Shown piece by piece: positions 9,985 to 42,897 of a DNA stretch of 64,000 bases (its first letter is position 1; each line of letters opens with the position of its first letter). This DNA comes from Tindallia sp. MSAO_Bac2. Its GTDB lineage: Bacteria; Bacillota; Clostridia; Peptostreptococcales; Tindalliaceae. The notes under the pieces are model-generated. The model ran no database searches. It saw only the letters and a program-made list of their open reading frames with translations, and was not told where the DNA came from. The position numbers and the translations under genes are program-made. The DNA is taken from assembly GCA_003838145.1 (NCBI GenBank), contig QYZZ01000043.1, positions 1-64,000 on the forward strand, in the 5' to 3' direction.

Positions 9985-10581
9985 TCATCCAAACGTCATT
10001 AGTAGCGGTACCAGTACCGGCACCATGGAAGATAATACAACTCCGGTGATAAAGGCTATAACGGCGATATTACCGTCGGTGGATTTGGAGATAACCGGTA
10101 ATGTGACGTCCATGGTGGTGGCACCACCGGGGGCTACGCTCTCCAGTTTTCCGATGTATCGGGCTACGACCGGGATTAGCATCAGGGCCATCACTTCCCT
10201 GGATATATTGGTAATAAAGGCCAGGGTTCCCAGTTGAGCGCTGTATTTGCTCAGCTCGATGGCAGAGAGGGAATACCAGCCAAAACCGGCACCGACTGCT
10301 CCCGCCTGGTTCCAGGGGAGGGATAGCAAAGTGCCTCCTATAATGGTGCCGACAATGCTGCCAACAGCAACCATAATGGGAACGAATAGTATTTTAAAGC
10401 CCATGGATTTCAGTTTTTTAAAGAGGTCTCCCTGGTTTCCTATGTCAATGCCGACAAAAAACAAAAGGATGCAGAGTCCGATATTTATGATGGTTCCCAT
10501 ATAGGGAACGATGGATTGAGGAATAATGAAAAAGCCACTGGCAATGCCCAGGGCTACAGTTGCTAAAATAGCGAGGGTCAT
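9985..10581 (-). CDS. LysO family transporter, C-terminal part
   Basis: 198 residues with about six hydrophobic segments, starting MTLAILATVALGIASGFFII behind AAGGAG. It corresponds to the larger C-terminal part of LysO/YbjE (DUF340), a lysine exporter of about 300 residues in Escherichia coli; the segments GAGFGWYSLSAIELSK and FITNISREVMAL are family hallmarks. The N-terminal portion is a separate gene immediately upstream (20-bp gap). Two-gene LysO systems are known in Firmicutes, so this is probably functional rather than a frameshift. The substrate in this organism (lysine or another cationic amino acid) is not proven. Confidence 0.8.
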   Translation of the reverse strand: MTLAILATVALGIASGFFIIPQSIVPYMGTIINIGLCILLFFVGIDIGNQGDLFKKLKSMGFKILFVPIMVAVGSIVGTIIGGTLLSLPWNQAGAVGAGFGWYSLSAIELSKYSAQLGTLAFITNISREVMALMLIPVVARYIGKLESVAPGGATTMDVTLPVISKSTDGNIAVIAFITGVVLSSMVPVLVPLLMTFG

Positions 10582-10601
10582 GGAATCTTTCTCCTTTCGG
10601 C

Positions 10602-10880
10602 TTATTTTTGCTTAATGATCCGTGAAGATACCAGCTTCACACCGATCACACTGAATACAATGGAAAAAGCTGCCAGCACAATTGCCTGGAATCCAATGGT
10701 GCCGAAGGTATAAATAACTTCCTGGTCCAGGCCGATGTTTACACCCATGATAAAGAGCAGCAGCAAAAGTGAAAGGTTTTGCAGGGTATCCAGCCGGTTC
10801 ATTACCGCTGGTTTAAAAAGCCTTCTGTAACCTAAAAATCCGCCTATGGCGAGGATGATTACGTAGAGTAAGATATCCAT
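10602..10880 (-). CDS. LysO family transporter, N-terminal part
   Basis: 92 residues from ATG 10880 (MDILLYVIILAIGGFLGYRR), with AGGAGG eight bases upstream. The frame is open further into the REP element, but that extension is hydrophilic junk. Three membrane segments are visible, including LSLLLLLFIMGVNIGLDQEV, which parallels LLFFVGIDIGNQGDL in the second gene and shows the internal repeat of the family. The two proteins likely assemble into one transporter. The REP copy at 10937 lies 57 bp upstream, separating it from RNase J. Confidence 0.78.
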   Translation of the reverse strand: MDILLYVIILAIGGFLGYRRLFKPAVMNRLDTLQNLSLLLLLFIMGVNIGLDQEVIYTFGTIGFQAIVLAAFSIVFSVIGVKLVSSRIIKQK

Positions 10881-10936
10881 GGTGTGTACCTCCTGTAAAG
10901 AATATGTAAGGGGTGGGGTCAGGGATAGGGGAAGGT

Positions 10937-11002
10937 CACAGTGGGGACGGAGCTCTCGTGCCCCAAAGTTCGTGGAGCACAAGACCTCACGTCCCCACTG
11001 TG
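10937..11002. repeat. REP-like nested inverted repeat
   Basis: Arms CACAGTGGGGACG and CGTCCCCACTGTG are perfectly complementary over 13 bp; inner arms TCTCGTGC and GCACAAGA pair with one mismatch. Same architecture as 7900-7963, with different inner sequence. It sits 16 bp from the RNase J stop codon and could also act as a 3' stabiliser or terminator of that mRNA. Confidence 0.85.
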
Positions 11003-11018
11003 CCGACTTGATGCTTTG

Positions 11019-12686
11019 CTACACTTCCATAATAATTGGAAGGATCATGGGTCTTCTTTGTGTTTTATGGTATAGGAAGTCCTTCAGGCTGTCGCGTATA
11101 GCGTTCTTAAGTTGCGACCATTCCCGTACTCCTTTTTGTTCGCATTGCTCCAGAGATTTTTGCACTTCTTCTCTGGCTTCGTCCAGCAGATCTTCAGATT
11201 CCCGAACATAGACAAATCCACGGGAAATAATGTCCGGACCTGCAATAACTTTAGCTTCCTGCTTATTAATGGTTACTACCACCACCATCAAACCGTCTTC
11301 CGCCAGATGCTTACGGTCTCGAAGCACAATACTTCCAACGTCGCCAACGCCAAGTCCGTCTACCAGTACAGGGCCCGCCTGAACTTTACCGGTAATTTTG
11401 GCGGCTTTACGATTCATTTCCAGTACCTGACCATTTTCCATGGTAAAAATGTTTTCTTCCGGCATTCCCATGCCTATGGCCAGATTTCCATGTTGTTTTA
11501 AATGACGGAATTCACCATGAACCGGGATAAAATATTTTGGTTTAACCAGCTTATGAATCAACTTAAGCTCTTCCTGACAGGCGTGTCCTGAAGTATGGAC
11601 TTCTGCCATGGGATCGTAGATAACATCTGCGCCTTTTTCAAACAGCTGATTGATTACCCGGCTCACCATTTTTTCATTGCCCGGAATTGGTGAAGCTGAG
11701 AAAATGACCAAATCATCTTTTTTAATTTCCAGCTTGCGATGTTCGCTGGAGGCCATGCGTGATAAAGCGGCCATTGGCTCTCCCTGACTGCCGGTAGTCA
11801 GCAGCAAAAGCTGGTCGTCCCGGTAGTCATCCATGTCCCTGATGTCAATGAGGATATCCTTGGGTACATGCAATGCTCCAAGTTCTGCCCCTACTTCAAA
11901 TACGTTTACCATGCTGCGCCCGGAAATAACAATTTTACGGTTGAATTTCTCCGCTGTATTGATGATCTGCTGCAGTCGGTGTATATGGGAGGCGAAGGTT
12001 GCCACAATAATTCTGCTTTTGGTGTTCATAAAGGCGTTTTCCAGTGCCACACCGATTTTACTTTCAGACATGGTGGTGCCGGGTCGTTCTGCATTGGTGC
12101 TGTCTGCCAGCATCAGCAGTACGCCTTTGTTACCCAGCTCTCCCAGCCGGTGGAGATCGATCATTTCACCATCAACGGTGCTGTAATCTACCCGGAAATC
12201 ACCGGTATGCAGAATAACACCTTCGGATGTGTGGACCGCAATAGCGCAGGCATCTGGAATACTGTGACTTGACCGGATGTATTCCACTTTAAAGGATCCC
12301 AGCTGAAAGGTTTCCCCTGCTTTAACCCGTTGCAGGTGAACTTTTTTGTCCAGCTTGTGTTCCTTTAATTTAACTTCTAACAGACCCAGCGTCAGGCGTG
12401 TGCCGTAGATGGGGATATTTATTTTTTTCAACAGATATGGCAGGGCACCAATATGGTCTTCATGACCATGGGTCAGCACAACCCCTTTAATTCTATCTTT
12501 GTTTTTTTCCAAATAGGTAGTATCCGGGAGGACAATGTCGATTCCCAGCATTTCATCATCAGGAAAGCTTAACCCGCAATCGATGATCAGAATTTCGTTC
12601 TTGTACTCGATCAGTGTCAGGTTCTTTCCTATTTCTCGTAATCCACCAAGTGGGATTATTTTAACTTTTGGTTGGTTTTTTGCCAA
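11019..12686 (-). CDS. rnj: Ribonuclease J (5'-3' exo/endoribonuclease)
   Basis: 555 residues when started at TTG 12686 (MAKNQPKVKIIPLGGLREIG), which has AAAGGAG eight bases upstream and gives exactly the length usual for RNase J1; a longer open frame upstream is not needed. Beta-lactamase fold with THGHEDHIGA near 74, the HTGDFRVD aspartate near 165, the beta-CASP domain (TFASHIHRLQQ; ASPIPGNEK) and HTSGHACQEEL plus the VHGEFRHLKQH histidines near 370-400. The C-terminal domain ends in TQRRPMILPIIMEV. It degrades and matures mRNA and rRNA. The Fur gene lies 67 bp upstream; a hairpin overlapping the fur stop (12734-12758) lies between them. Confidence 0.95.
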   Translation of the reverse strand: MAKNQPKVKIIPLGGLREIGKNLTLIEYKNEILIIDCGLSFPDDEMLGIDIVLPDTTYLEKNKDRIKGVVLTHGHEDHIGALPYLLKKINIPIYGTRLTLGLLEVKLKEHKLDKKVHLQRVKAGETFQLGSFKVEYIRSSHSIPDACAIAVHTSEGVILHTGDFRVDYSTVDGEMIDLHRLGELGNKGVLLMLADSTNAERPGTTMSESKIGVALENAFMNTKSRIIVATFASHIHRLQQIINTAEKFNRKIVISGRSMVNVFEVGAELGALHVPKDILIDIRDMDDYRDDQLLLLTTGSQGEPMAALSRMASSEHRKLEIKKDDLVIFSASPIPGNEKMVSRVINQLFEKGADVIYDPMAEVHTSGHACQEELKLIHKLVKPKYFIPVHGEFRHLKQHGNLAIGMGMPEENIFTMENGQVLEMNRKAAKITGKVQAGPVLVDGLGVGDVGSIVLRDRKHLAEDGLMVVVVTINKQEAKVIAGPDIISRGFVYVRESEDLLDEAREEVQKSLEQCEQKGVREWSQLKNAIRDSLKDFLYHKTQRRPMILPIIMEV

Positions 12687-21062: not shown

Positions 21063-21092
21063 AAGATACACACTAAATTTGAATTTTTTCAA
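21063..21092 (-). promoter_or_regulatory. Candidate promoter for the foldback RNA
   Basis: Minus strand TTGAAA (21087-21092), 18-bp spacer, TATCTT (21063-21068), five bases before the first arm of the foldback. It overlaps the last codons of the aminotransferase gene. Confidence 0.4.
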
Positions 21093-22227
21093 TCCGATCA
21101 AAGGCTTCTTTCAGCTTACTTTTGCCAACGGTGCAGGCGATCCGAAGATAGCCTTCTCCACAGCGGCCAAAAGAGTTGCCGGGGATGGTAAGAACCTTAG
21201 CCTGATCAAGAATCATTTCGCTGGCTTTTTCTGAGCTGAGGCCGCTTTCCTTAATGTTAATAAAGAGGTGGAAGGTTCCCTGCGGTTCAAGGACGCTCAT
21301 CCATGGTATCTGGTTGATGCGTTCTGCCGCATAAAATACTCTTTCCTTATACTTGTCGAAGGTGGCCGGCAAAATGTCTTTGCGATTTCTCAGGGCGTAG
21401 ATGGCTGCTCTTTGAGAAATGGAAGGTGCGGTAAAAACCAGATTTTCATTGATTTGCTGGCAAACCTGGATGATTTCCCGGGGTGCAATAATGTTCCCTA
21501 CCCGCCATCCGGTCATAATGTAATCTTTTGAAAAGGTATTAACCACAACCAACCGGTCCCGAATATCGCTGATGGTAGCCATGGATTGGAACTTACCATT
21601 AAATACCAGTGCGCCATTTACTTCGTCTGCAATGATGAGCAGGTCTCTTTTAATGGCAATATCAGCAATAACCTGAAGGGTTTCTTCGCTATAAACTGCA
21701 CCGGTGGGGTTTCTGGGTGAGTTTACGATAATGGCGCGGGTACGCTCGTTAATGCTTTCTTCCAGTCTTTTTACATCAATCTGAAAGTTTTCTTCTTCGT
21801 AGGTTTCCAGTTCCACCGGAACTCCGCCGGTCATCTCAACCTGCTGATAGTAGGGGGTGAAATATGGCGCCGGCAGGATAACCTCATCTCCGGGATCCAG
21901 CACTGACTCCAGTACCAGATACATTCCCAGGCAGGCACTGGCCGTTACCATCACTTCTGCATCATCTACCAGAGCCCGGAATTCATCCCGGTAATAATGG
22001 CAAATTTCCTGTCTCAGTTCCGGGTCGCCCCGAAAGTCGGTATAATGTGTGTGGCCATCCATGGCATCCTGAAAGGCGGCTTTAATAATGCGTTCATCCG
22101 TGTTAAGATCCGGATCGCCCAGGCTGAGGTCGATTACATTGGCGTACAGTTTTGAGCGCTGGTCCACCGCTCCCATGGGAGTTGTATGATCTTTCCAGTA
22201 TCGCTTGGCAATAAATTTGTTCTTCAT
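21073..22227 (-). CDS. Class I/II pyridoxal-phosphate aminotransferase
   Basis: 384 residues. Fold type I aminotransferase: YTDFRGDPELRQEI near 58, NSPRNPTGAVYS near 165, ADEVNGALVF near 200 and PLP lysine in FSKDYIMTGWRVG near 230. The substrate is unknown; relatives act on aspartate, aromatic or other amino acids. It lies 21 bp after the RocB-like peptidase gene at 22249 and is probably co-transcribed with it, so it may transaminate a product of that enzyme. RBS CAGGAGGG. Confidence 0.85.
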   Translation of the reverse strand: MKNKFIAKRYWKDHTTPMGAVDQRSKLYANVIDLSLGDPDLNTDERIIKAAFQDAMDGHTHYTDFRGDPELRQEICHYYRDEFRALVDDAEVMVTASACLGMYLVLESVLDPGDEVILPAPYFTPYYQQVEMTGGVPVELETYEEENFQIDVKRLEESINERTRAIIVNSPRNPTGAVYSEETLQVIADIAIKRDLLIIADEVNGALVFNGKFQSMATISDIRDRLVVVNTFSKDYIMTGWRVGNIIAPREIIQVCQQINENLVFTAPSISQRAAIYALRNRKDILPATFDKYKERVFYAAERINQIPWMSVLEPQGTFHLFINIKESGLSSEKASEMILDQAKVLTIPGNSFGRCGEGYLRIACTVGKSKLKEAFDRIEKIQI

Positions 22228-22248
22228 GTTTACCCTCCTGACACAGTT

Positions 22249-23925
22249 CTATTTTTCCAACAGGTAGTTGATCGTTTCGAATAAGAGCTCCGGCATTACA
22301 TCAAAGGAGAATGGCCGGTGCAGTCTTTCTGTAAACTGGTGAGCATCTTTTCCAAAGGGACCGATATTGGCAACGGGGACGTTAAATTCCCGCATTTCTT
22401 CAATGGGCAGCTCATATTTTTCTGGCCAGGCTGGCATATTGGTGATTAGCTTATCAATGGTTGCCTGATTTTCCGTTACGCTGCAAAAGCTAAGATCGGA
22501 AATGTAAGGATAGAATTTTCTGACCTTCAGTGGTTCACTGATTCTTGGCTGCACTTTATCCGCACTATGCTTTAATGCATCCAGCAGCTTTTGTTCCTGT
22601 TCATTTTTCCCGTTAATGTACATATGCGGATAGTAAGGCGGAGCAAAATAAACAACGATCATGGGGTCCGGATCCGGATTCATTTTGCAGACTTCCTCCA
22701 CAATAGCCAGGCTGTATGCCCGGTCGTCCATGGTGTTTGGATCCAGACGACGCTGCAGGGCGGCAATTCGCTGGTGAAGCTTGTAACCCAGCTCTTCTGC
22801 TACTTTTCGGTAAAGTTTATCGAAGGTATACACCTTTGTTTTCCACGGAAGTGGTGTATGGGGAATTTCACTCATTTCACAATAGTTTTTGTAGTTATCG
22901 TTAAGACGCTTCACCACCGTATCAAAGGCTGTTTCCGCCTTTGCCACCAGTTTTGTCATTACTTCGTCCGGTTCGCTGCCATGGGTTGCATAATTAAAGT
23001 ATAAATGGGCTGATTTAGCTATCTGAACAGAGTAATCCATTTTTAAGTCCCGTTGCTTCAGGGTGATGGGCGGAACGGTAACTTCTCCGTCGGCTACATC
23101 GCACAGGTCATGACTCAGGTTTATTTCCCGCACCAGTTCTGCAGAAAGTTCATTGGGATCCAGGCCGTCAAAGCTTTGTCCGACATGAGATTCTTTTCCA
23201 ACGATGTAGAAGGATGGCAGGAGCTTGCCAATGGTACCCACATAGATATATCGGTTGTCATCTCCTTCGTATCGGGATGTCATATAATCTGTATCCAGTA
23301 CGGCATTATACTCCAGACCGTCTCTGTGTTTGATTTCGTTAAGCAGCTTCAGGGCGCTGAGCATGCCGGCAGAATTTCCTTCTTCGTCGGGTACTGCAAG
23401 AAAAATAATATTGCCTTTAAAAAGTTCAGGGTTTCTGGCTGCCTGCAGCATATGGGAAAGATTTGCAGCAACGCCGCACTTCATATCAAATATACCCCGT
23501 CCGAAAAGCCATTCACCTGAATCAAGGTCTTTTTTTGCTTCCTCCGGCAGTGTCATGTCTTTTAGTGCCTCTGCCAACGCCATTGGGTCTGTGGCTATAT
23601 GTTTAAGGTCACGATAATCTTCAATCCCTACGGTGTCGATATGACCCAGTAGAATAACCGTGTTTTTATGCTGACCTTCTCCTCCTTTTACGTAAGCGAT
23701 CACGTTGTGTCGCTCATCCTGTCCTTCACATTTCTGAAAATGGAGTTTATCCGGATTTTCCAGAAAATAGGGTTCTTCTTTAAGCGTATTGTAAATGTGC
23801 CAGGCAATATCCAATTCTCCGCTTGTTTCAACAGCACTTGGAATCTTTGTCAGCTCAATGGTGTATTTTTCAGTGTTTTGCTTGATTTCTTCAAGATGTG
23901 AATGGTGCTTGTTTTTATTTTCCAA
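22249..23925 (-). CDS. RocB-like M20 family peptidase/amidohydrolase (second copy)
   Basis: 558 residues from TTG 23925 (MENKNKHHSHLEEIKQ), chosen because GAGGAGGG lies seven bases upstream; the frame is open 16 codons more, without an RBS. M20 zinc-site motifs: VILLGHIDTVG near 90, GRGIFDMKCG near 140, VPDEEGNSAG near 178; a C-terminal NIGPFGKDAHQFTERLH supplies the last histidine. Length and layout match Bacillus RocB (~566 aa), annotated as an arginine-utilisation protein whose reaction is not established. It is a paralogue of the gene at 24193. A degenerate sigma-54 promoter and a long palindrome lie upstream, and an aminotransferase follows. Confidence 0.85.
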   Translation of the reverse strand: MENKNKHHSHLEEIKQNTEKYTIELTKIPSAVETSGELDIAWHIYNTLKEEPYFLENPDKLHFQKCEGQDERHNVIAYVKGGEGQHKNTVILLGHIDTVGIEDYRDLKHIATDPMALAEALKDMTLPEEAKKDLDSGEWLFGRGIFDMKCGVAANLSHMLQAARNPELFKGNIIFLAVPDEEGNSAGMLSALKLLNEIKHRDGLEYNAVLDTDYMTSRYEGDDNRYIYVGTIGKLLPSFYIVGKESHVGQSFDGLDPNELSAELVREINLSHDLCDVADGEVTVPPITLKQRDLKMDYSVQIAKSAHLYFNYATHGSEPDEVMTKLVAKAETAFDTVVKRLNDNYKNYCEMSEIPHTPLPWKTKVYTFDKLYRKVAEELGYKLHQRIAALQRRLDPNTMDDRAYSLAIVEEVCKMNPDPDPMIVVYFAPPYYPHMYINGKNEQEQKLLDALKHSADKVQPRISEPLKVRKFYPYISDLSFCSVTENQATIDKLITNMPAWPEKYELPIEEMREFNVPVANIGPFGKDAHQFTERLHRPFSFDVMPELLFETINYLLEK

Positions 23926-23956
23926 CTGAGTACCCTCCTCAACATATTTTTCAAAG

Positions 23957-23972
23957 TGCAAAATAATGAGCA
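23957..23972 (-). promoter_or_regulatory. Degenerate sigma-54 promoter
   Basis: Minus strand TGCTCATTATTTTGCA: the -12 TTGCA is perfect and the spacing is right, but the -24 GG is GC. It lies 32 bp before the TTG start, close to the spacing of the two clean sigma-54 promoters at 25885 and 38054. Confidence 0.4.
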
Positions 23973-24017
23973 CTTGTTCATCTTGTCTATCTTTTTTTTA
24001 ACCTTTGCCTATATGTT

Positions 24018-24041
24018 TGTTTATGCAACGATGTATAAACA
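24018..24041. promoter_or_regulatory. 24-bp palindrome, candidate activator site
   Basis: TGTTTAT and ATAAACA are 7-bp arms, with an extra matching CA/TG inside, around an ACGA centre. It lies about 45 bp upstream of the degenerate sigma-54 promoter, within the usual range for an enhancer-binding protein site. No second copy was found near the other sigma-54 promoters. Confidence 0.4.
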
Positions 24042-24159
24042 TGTTTTTTATTGTTATGTCTTTTTAGGTCTTACAATTATTTTTACATGGCAAACATTTG
24101 TTAATATGTGAACAGGTGTATCTTTATACACTTTCCCTCTGCGAGCCCTTTTCTTTCGA

Positions 24160-24191
24160 AAATTAATTTGCACCGAAGCGCAAATTAATTT
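24160..24191 (-). terminator. Hairpin terminator after the RocB-like gene at 24193
   Basis: AAATTAATTTGC and GCAAATTAATTT are perfect 12-bp arms around an 8-base centre, beginning immediately after the TAG stop. The T-tract is short, so it may act mainly as a 3' stabiliser. The 267-bp gap 23926-24192 otherwise holds the signals of the downstream gene. Confidence 0.5.
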
Positions 24192-24192
24192 G

Positions 24193-25848
24193 CTATTTAT
24201 CCTTCAGCAGTTCATCGATGGCATAGGCCAGTAATTGGGGATAAATGCGGAAGGAGTAATCAACATGAAGTCTCTCTGTGTTTTTGTGAGCATCTTTCCC
24301 ATAAGGTCCGATATTCATTACCGGTAAGTCCAGCTTTTTAATGGTTTCTACCGGCAGTTCATAGCTAAAACCCCAATTAGGCATATTTGGCATGATATTG
24401 GTAATAACATCCTCTGCATTTTGGAGGGATACAAAGCTAAGATCGCATAGTCCTGTAAAGAAGTTCTCAACGCCAACATCTTCATTAAATTCGCTCTTGG
24501 CATATTCGGATACCATTTCCACCACTTTATTTGCTTTGGCTTTTTCCGGTGTTTCTGTGGTGGGCTTGATGTGCGGATAGTATGGCGGCACATATATTAA
24601 AACAATTTTGGGGTCTTTATCAGGGCAGAAGGAATAAACTTCTTCCATCATTTTTGTGGCCAGGATTCGCTGGTCCATCTCAGGTTGTTTCTTCCATTCC
24701 TCCATGCACTTTTTCATATGATCTTCAAATTTCTGACCACCATGTTTTTTAGCCATTTCAACCAGTTCGCTGTATGATAAAACCTGAGGCTTCCAGTCAT
24801 AAAAGCTTCCCTGAGACTTGGACATCTTAAAGAATCTTTCTGTTTCTCTGCGCTGTTTGTCCAGAGAGTCTTTCATTGCCTCCATGGCCAGTTCCCGAAC
24901 TTTATCGAAAAAGTATTTCGGAGATTGGTCTGCTGTTAGAAAATTGTAATAAGCGTAGGCTGACTCCGGTGTTTTCACATTATAGTGCTGCTTGGTATCT
25001 GTTTGTTTTAAGGAAGTTGGCGGCGAAAACACTTCATCTTCATAGGAGTCGGATAAATCCATGTTCAGTTCTATTCTCCGGGTCAGTTCGGAGATAATCA
25101 GATTGGCGTTCAGTCCAGTCAGCGAGTCGCCTCCATGGGTCTCTTTGCCAATGGCATAAGCCATCAGTACAAATTTACCCAGGGTTCCCTGGTAGATATA
25201 CTTGTTGTTATCTCCCGGATAATAAGGGAACTGGGATTCACCATCCACGCAGGCAATATAGTCCAAATCATGTTTTTGGGATAGTTCCAATAGATTCTCT
25301 GAGGCTGCAATCATACCAAGGGAATTATTCTCCTCGTCCGGCACACCAACAAAGAGTAAATTTCCGTTCAGTTCTTCCTGATTTCTGGAGGCTGCTTCCA
25401 ACATGGCCATCGAGACCGAAACTCCGCACCGCATGTCCATCACGCCACGGCCAAAAATCCACTCGCCGGATTCGTAATCTTTTCTGGCATTTTCGTTCAT
25501 GGAAGATGGATCCAGTCTTTTCATCAGTTTTTCCGGCTCATAGGCCACGTCCTGGTTCTTGCCATAATCACTGACATCTACGATATCTGTATGTCCCATT
25601 AAGATAACGGTTTTGTTGGATTTGCCGTTTCCTCTCACCAGGGCAGTGATAACCTTGCGGTCAAAACCATCTTTCGGTATAGGATGACATTGAACGTATT
25701 CTGGGTTTTCCTGAAAATAAGGCATTGCTTCAAACTGTTTAACGATAGTTTCTGTCGACAGATTCTCGTCGGCAGTTCCTGATGTTCCGGGTGTCTTTAC
25801 TAATTCATAAAACATGCTTTCCAAAAGTTCTCTGTTAACGGTAAGCAT
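24193..25848 (-). CDS. rocB: RocB-like M20 family peptidase/amidohydrolase (first copy)
   Basis: 551 residues, RBS AGGAGGGG. M20 motifs: VILMGHTDIVDV near 82, GRGVMDMRCG near 132, VGVPDEENNSLG near 168, and NIGPYGKDAHKNTERLH near 515. It closely parallels the 22249 gene along its whole length. In Bacillus rocB belongs to the RocR/sigma-L arginine regulon. Here a perfect -24/-12 element lies 37 bp upstream and a RocR-like activator is encoded at 38089, so the same control is inferred. The substrate may be an acylated or peptidic source of arginine/ornithine; this is not shown. Confidence 0.87.
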   Translation of the reverse strand: MLTVNRELLESMFYELVKTPGTSGTADENLSTETIVKQFEAMPYFQENPEYVQCHPIPKDGFDRKVITALVRGNGKSNKTVILMGHTDIVDVSDYGKNQDVAYEPEKLMKRLDPSSMNENARKDYESGEWIFGRGVMDMRCGVSVSMAMLEAASRNQEELNGNLLFVGVPDEENNSLGMIAASENLLELSQKHDLDYIACVDGESQFPYYPGDNNKYIYQGTLGKFVLMAYAIGKETHGGDSLTGLNANLIISELTRRIELNMDLSDSYEDEVFSPPTSLKQTDTKQHYNVKTPESAYAYYNFLTADQSPKYFFDKVRELAMEAMKDSLDKQRRETERFFKMSKSQGSFYDWKPQVLSYSELVEMAKKHGGQKFEDHMKKCMEEWKKQPEMDQRILATKMMEEVYSFCPDKDPKIVLIYVPPYYPHIKPTTETPEKAKANKVVEMVSEYAKSEFNEDVGVENFFTGLCDLSFVSLQNAEDVITNIMPNMPNWGFSYELPVETIKKLDLPVMNIGPYGKDAHKNTERLHVDYSFRIYPQLLAYAIDELLKDK

Positions 25849-25884: not shown

Positions 25885-25900
25885 TGCAAGCTTTGTACCA
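25885..25900 (-). promoter_or_regulatory. Sigma-54 (-24/-12) promoter of the RocB-like gene
   Basis: Minus strand TGGTACAAAGCTTGCA: GG and GC are separated by exactly ten bases, matching TGGYACR-N4-TTGCA at every fixed position. It predicts a leader of about 25 nt before the ATG at 25848. Confidence 0.8.
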
Positions 25901-25992: not shown

Positions 25993-26046
25993 AGAACAAA
26001 CGCAGAGCGTCTGTTCTAATTGAGAATTGAAAATTAAGTTCAAATA
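25993..26046. repeat. Hairpin plus AT-rich tail composite repeat
   Basis: AGAACA and TGTTCT, extended by ACGC/GCGT across one mismatch, form a hairpin, followed by an AATTGAGAATTGAAAATTAAG tail and CAAATA. It matches the architecture of 13331-13388 and shares its tail end with 17421-17462. Confidence 0.55.
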
Positions 26047-26133
26047 CCCATAGGGCACTCGTACCCACAGGGCACAAAAGCTCACAATTAAAAGATAATC
26101 AGCCCAAAATTTAACAAAAAAAGGAGTGAAGTG

Positions 26134-27759
26134 ATGAGTAACGGTAAAGTAATGTATCATAATGCTAATCTGATTAATTTCCCTGACATGCCTGATGGAG
26201 ATGCTTTTATCGTAGAAAACGGGAAGTTTGAAAAGGTTGGTGCGACTGAAGTATTAAAAAAAGAAATAAATGATTCAGATGAGTTGATAGATCTTCAGAA
26301 TAAAACGGTTATCCCCGGATTAACAGACTCACATATTCACCTGCTGGCTTACGGCTCCACCAAGGAACAGGTGGTTAGTCTGAAAGAAGTACGATCCATG
26401 GAAGAACTAAAGAGCAAAGTAGCTCAGCATATAGACCGCAAGGCTTTGACCTCCGGACAATGGGTTAAGGGTTCCGGCTGGAACCACGATACCTTCCCGG
26501 ACAGAAAAGTTCCAGACCGGCAGGATCTTGACAGCATATCCAGAGAGCATCCCATTATGCTGCTTCGTATGTGCTACCATATCTGTTCTGTTAATACGAA
26601 AGCGCTGGAAATGGCCGGCATTACCAGGGATACTCCTGATCCGGAGGGCGGTAAAATTGACCGGGATGCCAATGGAAATCCAACTGGTGTGCTGAGAGAA
26701 ACAGCTATGGAGCTGGTAAAACAGGCAATCCCACCAATTGTTGATAAAGACGAGATTAAGGATCTGATTCTTTCTGCAACTGAAGATCTGGTGAGTCTTG
26801 GATTTACTACAGTTCACACAGATGATTTTGGCTTTGTAGGTGACCGGCAGGCACTGCTGGATGCTTATAAGGAACTGAATGAACAGAAAAAACTGCCACT
26901 TCAGATTGTCATGCAGATGATTATTCACAATCCTGAAGATATTGATTTTTACATCGAAAATAATCTGCAGTCCTGGAATTCTATGGGAAGATTGATGCCC
27001 GGACCCATAAAGATCCTGGGTGACGGTTCTCTTGGTTCCAGAACTGCTGCATTGCATGAGCCTTATTCTGACGATCCTGAAACTTCCGGCTTTATGCTTA
27101 TGTCTGAGGAGCGGCTGGATGCGATGATTAAGAAATCTTTTGAGAATGGCTTTGACGTAGCAGCTCATGGTATTGGCGATAAAACCACCGAGACTATGCT
27201 TGATCTGTTTAAGAAATATGAGCATATATATAAACCGAAAAACTTACGCCCTTCTGTTATTCACAGCCAGATTGGCAGCGATTCCATTTTACGGAAATAC
27301 AGAGATCAGCAGGTTATCGCCAATGTACAGCCTATCTTCACCCATTCTGATCTTCATATAGCGGAAGACCGGATCGGATCTAAACGGCTTAAATACAGTT
27401 ATTGCTGGAAAACCTATCTGGATATGGGAATACCGACTGTCGGAAGCTCCGACTCGCCGGTGGAAAGCTTTAATCCTTTCTGGAACATTTATACAGCAGT
27501 TGCAAGAAAAGACCTGGAAGGCAATCCGAAGGATGGATGGATTATGGAAGAAGCACTGAGCCTGCAGGAAGCCATGGAACTGTTTACGTTGAAACCTCCC
27601 ATGCTCTCTGATGAATGCGATACAAAAGGACAGTTAAAAGAAGGATATGAGGCTAATTTTACAGTATTAGATAAGGATCCTTTTAAAGTGGATATTGAAG
27701 AACTGAAGGATTTTAAGGCGCATGCCACTTATTTTAGGGGAGAAAAAGTTTATGAATAG
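26134..27759 (+). CDS. Amidohydrolase family protein (YtcJ-like)
   Basis: 541 residues from ATG 26134 (MSNGKVMYHNANLINFPD); AAGGAG is seven bases upstream, and an adjacent GTG at 26131 is too close. Metal-dependent hydrolase fold with TDSHIHLLAYG near 70, DGSLGSRTAALHEPY near 300, HGIGDKTTE near 345, SDSPVES near 440 and a beta-sandwich closing at the C-terminus (LKEGYEANFTVLDKDPF). Relatives include N-substituted formamide deformylase, but the substrate is unknown. It is the only clear plus-strand gene, divergent from a RocB-like peptidase and convergent with rarA. Confidence 0.85.
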   Translation: MSNGKVMYHNANLINFPDMPDGDAFIVENGKFEKVGATEVLKKEINDSDELIDLQNKTVIPGLTDSHIHLLAYGSTKEQVVSLKEVRSMEELKSKVAQHIDRKALTSGQWVKGSGWNHDTFPDRKVPDRQDLDSISREHPIMLLRMCYHICSVNTKALEMAGITRDTPDPEGGKIDRDANGNPTGVLRETAMELVKQAIPPIVDKDEIKDLILSATEDLVSLGFTTVHTDDFGFVGDRQALLDAYKELNEQKKLPLQIVMQMIIHNPEDIDFYIENNLQSWNSMGRLMPGPIKILGDGSLGSRTAALHEPYSDDPETSGFMLMSEERLDAMIKKSFENGFDVAAHGIGDKTTETMLDLFKKYEHIYKPKNLRPSVIHSQIGSDSILRKYRDQQVIANVQPIFTHSDLHIAEDRIGSKRLKYSYCWKTYLDMGIPTVGSSDSPVESFNPFWNIYTAVARKDLEGNPKDGWIMEEALSLQEAMELFTLKPPMLSDECDTKGQLKEGYEANFTVLDKDPFKVDIEELKDFKAHATYFRGEKVYE

Positions 27760-30156: not shown

Positions 30157-31236
30157 CTAGTCTTTCAAACCGCCGCTTATAAGCTGAGTACTGACATAAG
30201 GACTGGTGGTTAATGCCAGCATAGCTCCGTAGCTTAGGAAGAACTTCATCTCGGAGCCGATGTCATATTTTTTTTCTGCATCGGTTATATCCAGAATCAT
30301 GTGATCACTGCTGCTGCCAAGAATATCCACACCTGGTTCAAGGCTTTTAACAGGATGAGTTGCCAAATCCTGTTTTCCAACAGCAACAATGGCCCTTTTT
30401 CTGATTCCCTTATCTGTAAAGGTAGGTTTTCCGCCAAAGGCATCCATCCCGATTTCACCAATAGGCAACGAGGGTTTTTCCCTTATTTCAACAACTTCGG
30501 CCACTAATTGAAATGCATCGTAATACATGTCCGGCACTCGTTCTCCAAAGGCGCTTTCAGTACCAATCAGGATTGACTCCCCAATACGGAGGTTGGTAAT
30601 ACCTTTTGGCATTCTGTTTTTCATCATTAAATAAACACTGCTGCTATTGCCTCCACTGACGAATTCCAGTTTTCGACCCAGCTGTTTTTCTACTTTTTTT
30701 GTCAGTTCTGTCAGTTTCCCCAGGTTGTTTTCATCTGGGATTACAGCTCCAAAGCAAGTTAAATTGGTTCCTAAGCCTATCAGGCTAAGGTGCTTTAATT
30801 GCTGCATTCGCTTAACCAATTCCAGCAATTCAGCTTCTTCCATAATTCCTTCTCTCAGGTCACCGAGATCCGCCATTAAGATTACCTGATGCTGCCGGTT
30901 CTGATTTCCTGCGGCTTCATTAAGAGCCTGAAGGGTTTTCCATTCAGAGTTTAAAGAAATACTGGCATATTTGACCACCGTCTCTGCCTGGCTGATCATG
31001 GGGAGTCGCAGCAGCATGGTTCGGGTTCTCAATGTACGCATTTTTTTCAGGTTCTCGATGCGAGAATCCGCCAGAATTTTGATACCACCGGCAACAAGGG
31101 ATGCCGCCACCTGAGGGATGGCACAAAAGCCTTTGGTTACAGCTGCCGGTGTTATGCCGTGCTCGTCGCACATGCGGCATATTTGTTTTGCGTTATAAGT
31201 AAGCTTGTCGGTGTTTATTTCTATTCTCGGGTTCAT
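30157..31236 (-). CDS. orr: Ornithine racemase
   Basis: 359 residues. Fold type III PLP enzyme of the alanine racemase N-terminal family: MNPRIEINTDKLTYNAKQIC, PLP lysine K35 in AAVTKGFCA, and VSGGNSSSVYLMM near 197. In Clostridium sticklandii ornithine racemase converts L- to D-ornithine, the substrate of the aminomutase. Position after oraE and the mutase-associated ATPase gene matches known ornithine clusters. It lies 2 bp after the preceding gene. Confidence 0.9.
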   Translation of the reverse strand: MNPRIEINTDKLTYNAKQICRMCDEHGITPAAVTKGFCAIPQVAASLVAGGIKILADSRIENLKKMRTLRTRTMLLRLPMISQAETVVKYASISLNSEWKTLQALNEAAGNQNRQHQVILMADLGDLREGIMEEAELLELVKRMQQLKHLSLIGLGTNLTCFGAVIPDENNLGKLTELTKKVEKQLGRKLEFVSGGNSSSVYLMMKNRMPKGITNLRIGESILIGTESAFGERVPDMYYDAFQLVAEVVEIREKPSLPIGEIGMDAFGGKPTFTDKGIRKRAIVAVGKQDLATHPVKSLEPGVDILGSSSDHMILDITDAEKKYDIGSEMKFFLSYGAMLALTTSPYVSTQLISGGLKD

Positions 31237-31238
31237 TC

Positions 31239-32606
31239 TTATTCAGCTCCATTCCAACGCATACTCTGTTTCATCAGCTCATAGGCTGTTTCCGGGTATT
31301 TTTTTGATAGTACTCCCAGAGATGCCATGATATAATCAGAATCCAAAAGTACCTTTGCTTCCGCTGTTGGCATCATCTTGTTTTTATGATTGGAGCCCAG
31401 AATTTCCTTTAACATTTCCTTCCCATGAGGCAGTCTTGTCAGTGCGCCTCCGGTTCCAATCACATACTGAATTCCAGAAAGGTCTTTACCTTCTGCAACC
31501 GTGGTTTTACCACCAGGACCATACAGGTTTCGAACACGTCCCACATGACGCTCGATGGCAATTTTAACAGCTTCCTGTGCCAGCCTTTCCGCAAACTGAA
31601 TCTGTTTTTCAGTCTCTGGAATGGGTACATGATGTTCCATCATTTCTTCCACATCAAAGTCCATTTCTTTCTGCAATGTTTCCAGGCCAATTAAATCTAC
31701 AATATTTTTCATATTAACAAATACACCCAGGTCACCTTCTACTGTCCTTTTTGCAACAGGTTCAGGGCTTAGCAAAATTCGATTTATTTCTTCACTGCCT
31801 TCTGTAACCGAGTGAAGATCGGTGGTTGCACCTCCCACATCGAAGGCAATCAGGTCTCCCATTTTTTCCTTCAACAGCTTGGCAGCCACCATGACAGCAC
31901 CGGGAGTTGGTATTATTGGGCCGTTGATCATTTCACGCACCTGTTTCATGCCGGGTGCATGTATAATATGTTCTTCAAAAACATCCTGAATGACACTTCG
32001 GGTGGGTTCAATGTTCAGATTATCGATCTGTGGATATACATTTTCCACAACATACAGATGACTGTCTGTATCTTCAAAAATAAGTCGAATCTCATCCTGA
32101 TTCTCCACATTACCTGCATAGATAATTGGAACATTCAGATTTAATTCTGCGATTTTTTCCGCATTTTCAATGGCTGTATCTTTTTCCCCGTAATCCACAC
32201 CACCAGCAATCAGGATGATGTTCGGTCTGATTTCTTTTAGCTTTTTAAGGTCACTGCGACGCATTTTACCTGCAGTAATCTGATGAAGGTTGGCACCGGC
32301 CCCTAAAGCTGCTTCCTTGGCAGCACGAACAGTCATATCATAAACAAGTCCATGAACTGTCATTTTTAAACCACCGGCTGCGCTGCTGGTTGCCAGCATT
32401 TCATCGTATTCGATACTCTTCTGATCCAGATTCCGGGCCAAATCATCAATAGCGCCCTGGAGGCCGATGCGAACATCGCCCTCCAGCACGCTTGTTGGTG
32501 CCTGTCCCTGTCCCAGAAATTCAGGACTCTCACTGTCAATACCATTAAAGGCATTGACAACCGTTGTAGTACTCCCGATTTCTGCTACCAGTACATCAAT
32601 CTTCAT
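31239..32606 (-). CDS. MutL/GlmL-type ATPase associated with ornithine aminomutase
   Basis: 455 residues, ASKHA (actin-like) ATPase fold: VLVAEIGSTTTVVNAF phosphate loop at the N-terminus, second loop IAFDVGGATTDLHSV near 253 and VIGTGGALTRLPHG near 380. The family (glutamate mutase L, and or-cluster homologues) accompanies cobalamin-dependent aminomutases and is thought to reactivate or chaperone them. It overlaps oraE by 11 bp, which supports a tight functional link to OraS/OraE. The biochemical role in this organism is inferred. Confidence 0.85.
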   Translation of the reverse strand: MKIDVLVAEIGSTTTVVNAFNGIDSESPEFLGQGQAPTSVLEGDVRIGLQGAIDDLARNLDQKSIEYDEMLATSSAAGGLKMTVHGLVYDMTVRAAKEAALGAGANLHQITAGKMRRSDLKKLKEIRPNIILIAGGVDYGEKDTAIENAEKIAELNLNVPIIYAGNVENQDEIRLIFEDTDSHLYVVENVYPQIDNLNIEPTRSVIQDVFEEHIIHAPGMKQVREMINGPIIPTPGAVMVAAKLLKEKMGDLIAFDVGGATTDLHSVTEGSEEINRILLSPEPVAKRTVEGDLGVFVNMKNIVDLIGLETLQKEMDFDVEEMMEHHVPIPETEKQIQFAERLAQEAVKIAIERHVGRVRNLYGPGGKTTVAEGKDLSGIQYVIGTGGALTRLPHGKEMLKEILGSNHKNKMMPTAEAKVLLDSDYIMASLGVLSKKYPETAYELMKQSMRWNGAE

Positions 32607-34806
32607 TTTTCATCTCTTCCATTCTTTGAACCAGGAATGTGGCCACATGAATTCCTTTGGTTCCACGACCAAATCCAGCATCAACGCCCTGTTCAACAGC
32701 TATCTCCGGGGTTACCTGTGTTCCTCCGGCCACCAGGATTACCTTATCGCGAATTCCTTTTTCGATGCAGGTTTCGTGTAGTTTTTTCATGTTTTTATAG
32801 TGGGTCTCGTCATGGCTGATAATGGTAGAAGCCAGAATTGCATTTGCGTTAAGCTCGATGGCAGCATCTACTAGTTTTTCGATGGAAACGGAGGTTCCCA
32901 GATAGTGTGTATCGATGCCATATGCTTCTATACCACCATGTTTAATATCAATTATTTCCCGAAGGCCTACAGAGTGTTCATCTTCCCCTACGGTTGCTGC
33001 CACAATACGAAGTGGGTTCTTCTCGACAGCTTCTCTGATCTGGTCTTCGGACATAACTTCCGGCTCCGGTGGGATGACCAGATCATTTTCATCAATGGTG
33101 AAATCGACTTTTCCTTTCAGTTCAACACGGGTTCCTTCAGAGGGGTGCATCATTTCGCGATGAATGACTTCCACTTCTTTCAGGTTCATTTTCTTCGCAA
33201 ATTCGATGGCGGCATATTCTGCGACTCTTTTTGGTTTTGGAATAAACATGTTCAGCATTACAATGCCGTCGCCAAGCCATTCCATTTCTGGTTTAATCTT
33301 GGTTGTATTGAGTAAATCTTTTTTCTCGTCCAGTCGGACATGAACATTATCACTTTCATCCAGCTCATCGATGAAAATTATTTTTTCGGGTTTTTCCAGA
33401 GTGCATCCATCAATCAGTTTAGAAGGATTATCAACGGCTGAAGAATCGTACTGGGCTACATTGTTATATCCAAAATGAGCCGTTACAGGCGCCAGATAAT
33501 CTTCGTCCCGTTCATACACAGTACCATGTCCTACGCCACCATCAATTTTACGGGCAATGCCGTCTCCGTTACGCTCGGGATAATGACCTGAATCAACAAA
33601 AAAGCCTTCTTCAACAGCCTGGAAGTAACCTCCGGCTTCCAGTACTTCTTCCATAAAGAGAACCGCTCTTTCTTTAATTTCACGGCTTCGGTCATGGAGA
33701 TATCCGTCTTCCTTCAGCTGGATCATACTCATCAGGTCGTCCATGCCAACAAATGCCTGCTTTGCTGTGTCACAGGCTTCGATATTGTAAATGTGCCAAG
33801 GTACATTCCGACCTTCATCCGGTGTAATGGTAGACTGAATATCAGCACGTGTCAGTCTTGAAATCAACAGGTTCAGCGTATGGGTTACCGTTGCTTCCCG
33901 GGTGGAGGATTCGATGTATTTTGTGTTCATTTGTGCTCTCATTTTATATTCTTTAAACAACTGCCTGAGTGCCACTGCGTAAGGCAAATCCAGTTTCATA
34001 CTGGGTGCCGGTGGTGCAGTAGGCGGAACGGTGGAAAGGCAGATATTTTCTTTTTTCATTCCCACTTTTACAGAATACATGGAGTTCAGTGCATGCTGAA
34101 CCAACAGCTCCGGCATTACTTTCCATGCTTCACGGGCTGTAGCATTGGCATTATGGGCACCATCGATCTGAGCAATGTCAGCCCATACCATGGCTTTTTT
34201 TGCTTCTGCCGCATCAACAAATGAACGAACCATGTTGATGTTTCGATAAAGCACATTATATTGTGGATCCTGGTGAGCGCCGTTTACGCCTTCTTCCGCA
34301 AACATAACGGCTATCTCGGGTCCGGCAACACCACTGATATATGAATGGTAGTTTAACGGACGTCCCACTTCTTCTTCAATGAGATCCAGGGCTTTTCTCT
34401 GAGCTCTCACCTGTTTACGGGTAATGGGAATACCGCCTATTCCCTGGGGAGTTCCTTCAATCAGGCCGTCAAAGTGACTTTGGCCGGCAGTCCGGATAAC
34501 CATCAGGTGGTCCGCTCCGTGCCAGGCTGCCATTCGCATTCGACGAATATCGTCTTCAAAACGACCGGATGCAATTTCGGTGGTAATAACGCAATCCGGC
34601 TGAGGGTCGATGTCTCCAAAATACTTGGCAGATGGCAGGGGCACACTGTTTTCCAGCGGGGTGGAACAGTCCTGATATGTGAAAGGACCCATTTCCAGGT
34701 CTTCTTTTTTTTGCCGCCATGTCCATCCTCTGCGCTTCGGTCTGTATTTTTCAAGATCTTTCAGCAGGTTTTCCATGTCTAAATGCTCATTTGGTTGCAG
34801 ATCCAT
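32596..34806 (-). CDS. oraE: D-ornithine 4,5-aminomutase, large subunit
   Basis: 736 residues. TIM-barrel PLP domain, then a B12-binding domain with DxHxxG as DEHSVG (H611, lower axial ligand) and DIKHGG (K622, PLP Schiff base). The 11-residue spacing equals that of H618/K629 in the Clostridium sticklandii enzyme. With OraS it converts D-ornithine to 2,4-diaminopentanoate by an adenosylcobalamin radical mechanism. Its start overlaps the oraS stop (TAATG). No cobalamin riboswitch is visible upstream of the operon. Confidence 0.96.
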   Translation of the reverse strand: MDLQPNEHLDMENLLKDLEKYRPKRRGWTWRQKKEDLEMGPFTYQDCSTPLENSVPLPSAKYFGDIDPQPDCVITTEIASGRFEDDIRRMRMAAWHGADHLMVIRTAGQSHFDGLIEGTPQGIGGIPITRKQVRAQRKALDLIEEEVGRPLNYHSYISGVAGPEIAVMFAEEGVNGAHQDPQYNVLYRNINMVRSFVDAAEAKKAMVWADIAQIDGAHNANATAREAWKVMPELLVQHALNSMYSVKVGMKKENICLSTVPPTAPPAPSMKLDLPYAVALRQLFKEYKMRAQMNTKYIESSTREATVTHTLNLLISRLTRADIQSTITPDEGRNVPWHIYNIEACDTAKQAFVGMDDLMSMIQLKEDGYLHDRSREIKERAVLFMEEVLEAGGYFQAVEEGFFVDSGHYPERNGDGIARKIDGGVGHGTVYERDEDYLAPVTAHFGYNNVAQYDSSAVDNPSKLIDGCTLEKPEKIIFIDELDESDNVHVRLDEKKDLLNTTKIKPEMEWLGDGIVMLNMFIPKPKRVAEYAAIEFAKKMNLKEVEVIHREMMHPSEGTRVELKGKVDFTIDENDLVIPPEPEVMSEDQIREAVEKNPLRIVAATVGEDEHSVGLREIIDIKHGGIEAYGIDTHYLGTSVSIEKLVDAAIELNANAILASTIISHDETHYKNMKKLHETCIEKGIRDKVILVAGGTQVTPEIAVEQGVDAGFGRGTKGIHVATFLVQRMEEMKNED

Positions 34807-35168
34807 TATTTCGCCTCCTTAAAGAGAGATACCGCTTCTTCCCAAAGGTTTCCATCAGCCAGCTGAAGGCCTGTTTCACGGATATCCATATTCTTTTCTT
34901 TTGCCAGTTTAAGTACTACATGACCGGCTCCTTTACCCATTAGTCCACGATCCATAACGCCTTCTACAATGGATTTTGCTTCAATGCTTGAAAAGCCCAT
35001 TCGTAAAAGGACTGCTCTTTCAATGGATGGAGATGTGTTTTTTTCTGCCAGGTCGATCATTGGGTCAACAATTTTTTCAGCAAGCTGCCAAAATCGAAGT
35101 TCCAGCTCTTCGTCGGTTAAATTTTGCAAATGCTCACGTCGTTTTTGAAAATCGTCAGCTCGTTTCAT
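34806..35168 (-). CDS. oraS: D-ornithine 4,5-aminomutase, small subunit
   Basis: 120 residues, the family's usual length, RBS AGAGGTG. Helical protein beginning MKRADDFQKRREHLQNLTDEEL and containing TSPSIERAVLLRMGFSS and GAGHVVLKLAKEK. It pairs with OraE to form the active heterotetramer. It is separated from ortB by 77 bp containing a strong hairpin. Confidence 0.94.
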   Translation of the reverse strand: MKRADDFQKRREHLQNLTDEELELRFWQLAEKIVDPMIDLAEKNTSPSIERAVLLRMGFSSIEAKSIVEGVMDRGLMGKGAGHVVLKLAKEKNMDIRETGLQLADGNLWEEAVSLFKEAK

Positions 35169-35245: not shown

Positions 35246-36658
35246 TTAGCGGTTAATACCCAAATTTTGCAGCTGTTCTTCAATAAATTCCCGGCTGGAT
35301 TTGGTCTCTGTCATTAAATATTGTATGTCTTCATCTGAAATTTTTTCCGCTTGAGAAGCCGCATTTTTCACAAGGGATTTTCGCAGCTTGTTAAGATCAA
35401 CTTCCTGTGCTTTCAATAATGAGAGATCTTCAGGAAGTATAATGTTTTTACCCTTTTCTTCCTGCTTTGGATCGCCGAAGAAAATTTCGATTCCATTTTC
35501 ACGCGCAAAGGTCAGCTGTGCATTTATATGCTTGCCGGCTCCTGTATATTCTGTTTCCTGAACGACAATGATCTGATCTTCCTTCATTTCCTGGGCAACA
35601 CTGAAGGCCGCTGCCAGAGCTGTGTTGCCGGCTGGTCCTCTTTCGAGGCCTTCCATCTGTGCCAGCAATTCTGTCATCAGGAATACTTCTCCCTGATTAA
35701 CCAGCACGTACCGATCCATGTAACGAAGTGGTCTGGCAGCTGATCTTGGTACGTCGGAGCGATCCGGATTGGTCGCAAAGGGCACTCCAAATCCAGTGTG
35801 TCCTGTAGTAAAGGACTTGCGGTTGAACTGCTCATCACTGGCCATATGAAGGCCTGTAAGATCGACACTTGCTCCGATTATCCGGGTGTTTTCCGCACCG
35901 GCTTTAATTAATCCGCGGGCAGTACCTGTGAGATTCCCGCCGCCTGCATTGGTACAGATAACAGCGTCCGGATCACGGCCTTCTTTTTCACGGAACTGCA
36001 TTGCAATTTCGTATCCCAGAGTTTCAACACCTGCAATACCAAAGGGTGTGTATAGGGAAGCATTAAAATAACCAGTTTCTTCCAGTAATTTGAGAAAAAC
36101 ATAAAACAACTCTGGTCCAACTGAAGTCTGAACTACTTCTGCTCCATATGCTTCGCATTTTCTGGCTTTTTCGATGATTTCCGGTTGCCCCACATATCGG
36201 CTGTCATAACATTCCTGAACAACAATGCATTTCAGGCCATGCATGGCTGCCTGACTGGCAACGGCGGCACCGTAATTTCCGCTGGTGGCAGCGATCACAC
36301 CTTTATAACCAAGTTTTTTAGCATGGTAGACGGCGTTGGCCGCTCTTCTGGCCTTGAAACTGCCAGAGGGATTTGCCGCTTCATCTTTGATAAAGATTCT
36401 GGCTCCTTTACCGGCAGGTGCATATTTTCTTGCCAGGTTTGTCAGGTTTTTCATTTCTAACAAGGGCGTATTTCCAACACCAGTCTGACCCTGTATTTCC
36501 TGCATTTCTGCCAGTGTGTAGCCAGTTTCTTTCATCATGCGCTCGTAGTCAAACCCTATACCTTCTGCCTCAAAGGTGGCGTAATCAATCCCTACAGAAT
36601 CTTTCATAATCTGAGGTTTGCGACTCATGACGGCTTCATAGCTGTAGTCCTTACTCAT
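35246..36658 (-). CDS. ortB: 2-amino-4-ketopentanoate thiolase, beta subunit
   Basis: 470 residues from ATG 36658 (MSKDYSYEAVMSRK), with GGAG nine bases upstream; a GTG three codons earlier is too close to it. Fold type II PLP enzyme related to threonine synthase: GVGNTPLLEM near 64, PLP lysine in PSGSFKARRAANA (K102), SGNYGAAVASQAA near 137 and NAGGGNLTG near 240. With OrtA it cleaves 2-amino-4-ketopentanoate with CoA to acetyl-CoA and alanine, the last step of the oxidative ornithine branch. It overlaps ortA by 8 bp. Confidence 0.95.
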   Translation of the reverse strand: MSKDYSYEAVMSRKPQIMKDSVGIDYATFEAEGIGFDYERMMKETGYTLAEMQEIQGQTGVGNTPLLEMKNLTNLARKYAPAGKGARIFIKDEAANPSGSFKARRAANAVYHAKKLGYKGVIAATSGNYGAAVASQAAMHGLKCIVVQECYDSRYVGQPEIIEKARKCEAYGAEVVQTSVGPELFYVFLKLLEETGYFNASLYTPFGIAGVETLGYEIAMQFREKEGRDPDAVICTNAGGGNLTGTARGLIKAGAENTRIIGASVDLTGLHMASDEQFNRKSFTTGHTGFGVPFATNPDRSDVPRSAARPLRYMDRYVLVNQGEVFLMTELLAQMEGLERGPAGNTALAAAFSVAQEMKEDQIIVVQETEYTGAGKHINAQLTFARENGIEIFFGDPKQEEKGKNIILPEDLSLLKAQEVDLNKLRKSLVKNAASQAEKISDEDIQYLMTETKSSREFIEEQLQNLGINR

Positions 36659-36956
36659 GGTCTTCACCTCCCCAAAGTGCTTTTCTTCCCATTTTACCTA
36701 TTTGCAAGAGTTCGGGTACAAAATCACCAAAGTCATGCTTATAACTTGGTTCCACTTCCATTACTTTGCCAGTTACCAGGCGGCCGGTCAAGGTTTTTAC
36801 AGTGGCAACACTGTTCATTTCGGCATCTTCCTGAAGATAACCTTTAGCCCACATAATTAATGGTACTTTTTTCGTATCCTCCGGCAGCTGAGGAGCCCGT
36901 TGACCGGACTCCAGTATCGTATCCTGAATTTTAACCCAGGTTCCTTTTTTAATCAC
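36651..36956 (-). CDS. ortA: 2-amino-4-ketopentanoate thiolase, alpha subunit
   Basis: 101 residues, start GTG 36956 after AGGAGGG. Small beta-rich protein: KKGTWVKIQDTILESGQRA, VPLIMWAKGYL, and SYKHDFGDFVPELLQIG. These motifs are characteristic of OrtA, the non-PLP subunit of the thiolase. It lies 10 bp after ord and overlaps ortB. Confidence 0.94.
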   Translation of the reverse strand: MIKKGTWVKIQDTILESGQRAPQLPEDTKKVPLIMWAKGYLQEDAEMNSVATVKTLTGRLVTGKVMEVEPSYKHDFGDFVPELLQIGKMGRKALWGGEDHE

Positions 36957-38053: not shown

Positions 38054-38069
38054 TGCAACTTTCATGCCA
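38054..38069 (-). promoter_or_regulatory. Sigma-54 (-24/-12) promoter of the ornithine operon
   Basis: Minus strand TGGCATGAAAGTTGCA: GG-N10-GC spacing is exact, and all conserved positions but one (T for C in GCACG) match TGGCACG-N4-TTGCA. It lies 41 bp before the ord ATG. The upstream neighbour encodes a sigma-54 activator. Confidence 0.88.
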
Positions 38070-42855: not shown

Positions 42856-42897
42856 GTTAATCCCCTTTCCCGCCATTAAAAGTGGTTAAGTTGTCAT

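Follow-up and report, generated by a model that had tools for sequence, protein, structure and literature searches.

In Bacillus subtilis, which has both arginase and RocB, the roc genes are under sigma-54/RocR control, and RocB reportedly hydrolyses citrulline to ornithine and carbamate in an Mn-dependent reaction. That reported activity of B. subtilis RocB as a citrulline hydrolase makes out of date the statement, in a first-pass annotation of the DNA discussed here, that the reaction of RocB is not established. CtlX proteins are putative citrullinases proposed to convert citrulline to ornithine and encoded next to ornithine-catabolic genes (Price et al. 2022, PMC9007349). For Clostridioides difficile, argF has been studied as the citrulline route in ornithine metabolism, and that paper mentions RocB nowhere (PMC8803604). 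A literature search, with most subscription journals out of reach, found no paper tying RocB to ornithine fermentation. The 64,000-nucleotide (64 kb) stretch analysed here, hereafter the window, comes from Tindallia sp. MSAO_Bac2 (contig QYZZ01000043.1) and carries two tandem RocB-type genes, RocB-A and RocB-B, near a predicted ornithine fermentation operon. The reading we favour, held at little better than even confidence, is that both encode two-metal, M20-type hydrolases of ureido amino acids, with RocB-B most likely an L-citrulline hydrolase and RocB-A a sister enzyme for citrulline or a close ureido compound, that ornithine would pass into the adjacent pathway, and that sigma-54 and probably a PAS activator would switch on RocB-A.

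Both proteins have a length of about 550 residues, a PF01546 match and full-length likeness over about 545 profile positions, the properties by which RocB-type proteins are recognised here. Each retains the complete set of M20 metal ligands together with the catalytic Glu (H, D, E-E, D/E, H). Across an alignment of 201 RocB homologues, H86, D88, D138, E172, E173, H238, E525 and R526 are invariant and H521 is retained in 200, while the fifth metal ligand (E204 in RocB-A, D229 in RocB-B) is always acidic, being Glu in 122 proteins and Asp in 79. In a profile alignment this position coincides with the EP Glu of DapE structures, a metal ligand in DapE, and when a full-length M20 protein from the same window is aligned, it matches that protein's TEP Glu. 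The tandem M20 open reading frames of the first-pass annotation are therefore borne out with all ligands intact, and the loss of zinc ligands that it had named as a ground for rejecting its proposal was not seen. The closest sequence likeness of the pair is to ArgE/DapE deacylases and carboxypeptidase G2, with ArgE/DapE models (NCBIfam TIGR01910 and relatives) giving 41.0 and 43.1 bits, far under the 217.6-bit cut-off.

The choice between Asp and Glu at the fifth ligand divides the family. In a FastTree phylogeny of the 201 homologues, from which RocB fragments shorter than 480 residues were left out, all 79 Asp-type proteins group in a single clade (support 1.0) that contains zero Glu-type members. 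RocB-B lies inside a 49-member group of this clade (support 0.995) that includes ornithine-operon members, and, beyond its own family, RocB proteins of ornithine and arginine deiminase loci are among its best matches, at 48–50% identity. The clade also holds the RocB of locus L203, 36% identical to RocB-B, whose gene stands between those for a 1-pyrroline-5-carboxylate dehydrogenase (TIGR01237, 861.9 bits) and an amino acid permease, the rocABC order. RocB-A is Glu-type and falls outside the clade containing the L203 protein, in a sister subfamily. The two window proteins are only 36% identical, and the tandem is therefore no local duplication; a recent tandem duplication is ruled out by the tree together with the Asp/Glu split. 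The term paralogues, applied to them earlier, holds in a broad sense and fails for a close pair, and the duplication beside ornithine fermentation that had been supposed gives way to two genes from different deep clades. Both types are present in 11 of the 14 loci with at least two RocB genes, many of these loci being close relatives; the pairing of one Asp with one Glu type is not a rule, since three of the 14 deviate (two Asp with Asp, one Glu with Glu).

The gene set from orr to ord near the pair is, judged by its sequence matches, an oxidative ornithine fermentation operon (Table 1), and the link between RocB and ornithine fermentation is real. Among 297 genomes from the order, 127 carry RocB and 188 carry oraE. 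The latter is present in 119 of the 127 RocB-positive genomes versus 69 of the 170 RocB-negative ones (odds ratio 21.8), and a genus-level RocB/oraE table (rows 59, 6 and 28, 42), with genus labels read by hand, gives an odds ratio of 14.8. An absent genomic link to ornithine or arginine catabolism, the other outcome that was to count against the earlier proposal, is thus the opposite of what these counts show. Outside the order RocB is rarer, at 18 of 245 genomes in a class sample and 68 of 398 in a phylum sample, both of which include a few genomes of the order. RocB also stands inside the ornithine operon in other families: the order OraE, Or-4, Orr, AGCS symporter, RocB occurs in L076, L078, L079 and L081 (Asp type) and in L155 (Glu type). 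It adjoins Orr in L213 (Glu type; order AGCS, RocB, Orr, NhaC, Ord, OrtA) and in L217 (Asp type; order Orr, RocB), two loci whose genomes are related to that of the window at phylum level only. That Asp and Glu proteins occupy the same operon slot suggests overlapping substrates.

Neighbouring genes were inspected in 156 stretches, comprising the window and 155 loci from nearly always related genomes, a subset of the places where RocB was found. Of these, 154 yielded 173 RocB genes, with L088 and L134 outside the counts for having no RocB open reading frame after overlap filtering; plasmid records and 20 phylum loci were used in the tree and stand outside the neighbour counts as well. The sample is weighted to one order, and loci of one genus are non-independent. 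Within four genes of RocB, an AGCS symporter was present in 36 of the 154 loci, an Amidohydro_3 protein in 35, guanidino-modifying enzymes in 24, a BTAD regulator, an aminotransferase and a sigma-54 activator in 14 each, and Orr and a second M20 enzyme in 11 each. The guanidino-modifying enzymes (PF02274/PF19420, neighbour cluster C5) comprise arginine deiminase (TIGR01078), DDAH-like proteins, one agmatine deiminase and one CtlX-like protein, and most of them should make ureido compounds. Their density is 37.7 per 1000 genes at a distance of one or two genes from RocB and 1.7 at five or more. RocB proteins linked to DDAH are Glu-type in 14 of 14 cases, and those linked to arginine deiminase are Asp-type in five and Glu-type in four. 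Neighbour cluster C33 consists of NhaC/ArcD-like antiporters.

The pyridoxal phosphate (PLP) aminotransferase that had been noted 21 bp past the second RocB gene is there by its coordinates, and scores 547.1 bits against the PRK06348 family (NF004975; curated cut-off 549). In other genomes, too, an aminotransferase is the immediate neighbour of close relatives of RocB-B. It thus goes with the RocB-B type, and, contrary to the earlier view, the pair and the aminotransferase do not form a single conserved unit; an amidohydrolase and an AGCS symporter recur more often, and the divergent amidohydrolase beside RocB-A, a recurrent RocB partner, had been passed over.

RocB-A has its own upstream signals, in agreement with the first-pass annotation. 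The gene is preceded by AGGAGGGG and, at a distance of about 52 bp, by a GG-N10-GC site, and a hairpin separates it from RocB-B (14 bp, TTCG loop, RNA −14.8 kcal/mol, z −3.78). The pattern TGGYAYNNNNNTTGCW has two matches in the 64 kb, one before RocB-A and the other 41 bp before ord, with 0.33 expected; two matches were reached by 2 of 100 shuffles. Upstream of RocB-A it has a match in the window itself and in four of four relatives (L036, L037, L038 and L040), the L040 site being out of alignment with the sites of the others. Over all loci, a match lies within 300 bp upstream of 9 of 173 RocB genes versus 10 of 1512 unclassified genes, and six of the nine belong to the window's own family. 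With a promoter-like site, an activator gene in the window and rpoN in the genome, the elements of a putative sigma-54 regulon are all in place, and the analysis points to sigma-54 control common to the feeder enzyme and the fermentation operon. Two tandem near-palindromes further upstream were considered as conserved activator sites and rejected, as they are not kept in relatives and a three-mismatch pattern in the window is within chance.

Under the favoured reading, RocB-A and RocB-B would cut the ureido (N-carbamoyl) bond of citrulline-like amino acids to release the amine, ornithine, and carbamate, which would decay to CO2 and ammonia. Ureido hydrolysis yielding ornithine is proposed because both the genomic contexts and the reported B. 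subtilis result point there. The ornithine would feed the Orr, OraSE, Ord and OrtAB pathway next door, with L-citrulline the most likely substrate of RocB-B in view of its place in the clade of the rocABC-like protein, and citrulline or a closely related ureido compound that of the Glu-type sister RocB-A. The activator beside the ornithine operon would probably be the one acting with sigma-54 on RocB-A, the aminotransferase perhaps handles alanine, a product of the OrtB step, and the AGCS symporter may import citrulline. A hydrolytic, amino-acid-feeding role, as suggested in the first-pass annotation, remains the best fit. T. magadii growing on arginine and ornithine is reported to produce ammonium (PMC10308030).

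Several observations weigh against this reading. In the genome of the window, 97% complete, no arginine deiminase or PF02274 match was found (PF19420 was not searched there), nor was carbamate kinase, and arginase is present (TIGR01229, 344.9 bits), so any citrulline would need an external or a biosynthetic source. Neither a guanidino-modifying enzyme nor Orr lies within four genes of RocB in 119 of the 154 loci. RocB, Amidohydro_3, AGCS and the BTAD regulator recur as clusters, often without arginine genes, and these may serve another substrate. In L072 a CtlX-like protein (10883–11806; FPNN and HTN motifs, PF19420) adjoins RocB, with AGCS beyond, and next to this candidate citrullinase RocB would be redundant. 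When only genomes with oraE are compared, RocB has no additional association with PF02274 (89 of 119 versus 54 of 69) or with carbamate kinase (90 of 119 versus 50 of 69). No substrate-binding residue was identified in either protein, and AlphaFold on a four-row alignment (RocB-A, RocB-B and two L035 proteins) gave no usable fold (predicted local distance difference test score, pLDDT, 46.6). The idea that RocB is the route required where carbamate kinase is absent was tried and is ruled out as a general rule by its independence of carbamate kinase and PF02274 among oraE-positive genomes.

An acylase or dipeptidase function, in which the pair would act on N-acyl or peptide conjugates and so free arginine or ornithine for fermentation, was the earlier interpretation and is in our view unlikely, though far from negligible. 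It would fit the likeness to ArgE/DapE deacylases and carboxypeptidase G2, and it could give RocB another job beside the CtlX-like protein of L072; AGCS and APC transporters and another M20 enzyme also recur next to RocB. However, the ArgE/DapE scores reach at most 43 bits against a 217.6-bit cut-off, the recurrent placement with citrulline-forming enzymes and Orr suits a ureido substrate equally well or better, and the B. subtilis RocB assay reportedly used citrulline. The clusters with Amidohydro_3, AGCS and BTAD, which often lack arginine genes, could alternatively mean that only RocB-B hydrolyses citrulline, while the Glu-type RocB-A works alongside the divergent amidohydrolase and the AGCS symporter in an amide-degrading module of its own that has nothing to do with arginine. 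This we regard as rather improbable, since Amidohydro_3 and AGCS occur with both subfamilies, Glu-type RocB stands within the ornithine operons of L155 and L213, and within the window the sigma-54-type promoter of RocB-A is common only to ord.

Ureido derivatives of polyamines such as N-carbamoylputrescine, in place of amino acids, are a highly improbable class of substrates: in L071 the genes on either side of RocB encode spermidine synthase and agmatine deiminase, but this is one locus of 154, and no polyamine genes were seen around the window pair. A broader proposal, which we put forward only tentatively and consider doubtful, is that the family comprises two enzymes, of which the Asp-type would hydrolyse citrulline and the Glu-type would act on some other ureido or guanidine-derived substrate. 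Candidates include D-citrulline, whose hydrolysis would supply OraSE with D-ornithine directly, and citrulline in methylated or decarboxylated form. In this view anaerobes have repeatedly retained both types together for ureide salvage, in a module linked through sigma-54 to ornithine fermentation.

Table 1. Features of the RocB and ornithine fermentation region, in window coordinates.
Feature	Position	Strand	Basis
Class I/II PLP aminotransferase	21073–22227	minus	Open reading frame, family searches
RocB-B, M20-type hydrolase, Asp-type (D229, 574-residue numbering) RocB subfamily	22249–23925	minus	Open reading frame, PF01546, tree
Hairpin separating RocB-A from RocB-B, a possible RocB-A terminator	~24160–24191	minus	RNA folding
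RocB-A, M20-type hydrolase, 551 residues, Glu-type (E204) RocB subfamily	24193–25848	minus	Open reading frame (ATG), PF01546, ligands, tree
Sigma-54-type (GG-N10-GC) promoter-like site of RocB-A	25885–25900	minus	Pattern match
Tandem pair of near-palindromes, TGTGCCCTGTGGGTAC / AGTGCCCTATGGGTAT, at a spacing of 17 bp, upstream of the RocB-A sigma-54-type site	26044–26076	minus	Candidate activator sites
Divergent amidohydrolase (PF07969 Amidohydro_3)	26131–27759	plus	Open reading frame, Pfam match
orr, ornithine racemase	30157–31236	minus	NF040742
GlmL-related ornithine degradation protein Or-4	31239–32606	minus	NF040744
oraE, D-ornithine 4,5-aminomutase	32596–34806	minus	NF040743
Probable oraS, 120 residues, adjoins oraE	34806–35168	minus	Position, weak match
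ortB	35246–36667	minus	NF040741
Probable ortA	36651–36956	minus	Position, likeness to OrtA of L213 (NF040739)
ord, 2,4-diaminopentanoate dehydrogenase	36967–38013	minus	NF040740
Sigma-54-type site before ord, first gene of the ornithine operon	38054–38069	minus	Pattern match
Sigma-54-dependent activator (PAS, PF00158, Fis-type helix-turn-helix), directly upstream of the ornithine operon	38089–39507	minus	Domain matches

RocB-B was called as 22249–23973 with a GTG start (574 residues); a TTG at 23925, directly preceded by GAGGAGGG, is the likelier start and would give 558 residues. The same pair is present in three genomes of the same genus and on a 4,059-base contig of a Tindallia metagenome-assembled genome, where the RocB-A fragment is 89% identical. 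A third paralogue of the same genome (L003; G000:C85:57267–58826) is Glu-type; by eye it is flanked by a DJ-1/PfpI-like protein and an endonuclease IV-like gene, and its nearest relatives adjoin DDAH-like enzymes or Orr. Among more distant settings, RocB in L212 (6936–11680) has two neighbours that resemble relatives of the trimethylamine methyltransferase MttB, from N-terminal sequence only, and on a Deinococcus plasmid (L197, NZ_CP092189.1) it lies beside genes for allantoate amidohydrolase, allantoinase and ureidoglycine aminohydrolase, a purine ureide setting. On its upstream side the RocB region is separated from the ornithine operon by a rarA-like gene, read from its open reading frame, and a threonine-aldolase-like gene. 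Elsewhere in the window are another M20 enzyme (41644–42876) close to the ArgE/DapE and YgeY models, whose relatives (cluster C11) adjoin RocB in 11 other loci, a lysine exporter LysO split into two adjacent reading frames of 126 and 198 residues (9985–10982), a 6S RNA (41399–41572), and a selenocysteine tRNA followed by genes that look selB- and selA-like by eye (60103–63636).

A family usually annotated as 'M20/M25/M40 family metallo-hydrolase' thereby gains a testable split, Asp versus Glu at one metal ligand. Citrulline and related ureido compounds are suggested as a fuel for ornithine fermentation in many anaerobes, bypassing ornithine carbamoyltransferase and carbamate kinase.

Compared with ArgE/DapE deacylases and carboxypeptidase G2 (M20A), the pair has the M20 motifs and the dinuclear metal site in common, and RocB-A also the fifth-ligand Glu, but its members have 550 residues against about 400 and fall far under the family cut-offs. 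With B. subtilis RocB the window shares a full metal site, a link to arginine and ornithine catabolism and sigma-54-type control nearby, and RocB-B stands in the same Asp clade as the rocABC-like RocB of L203, the B. subtilis protein itself not having been compared. The presence of arginase and RocB in a genome where no arginine deiminase was found likewise resembles the situation in B. subtilis. The difference lies in the setting, with RocB-B beside an anaerobic ornithine fermentation operon and placed between the genes for a Glu-type relative and an aminotransferase. CtlX shares the proposed conversion and the gene setting, whereas its family is unrelated, consisting of distant relatives of arginine deiminase (PMC9007349). 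The window operon itself is of the same kind as the clostridial oxidative ornithine fermentation operon (Orr, OraSE, Ord, OrtAB), as represented in the work on C. difficile (PMC8803604).

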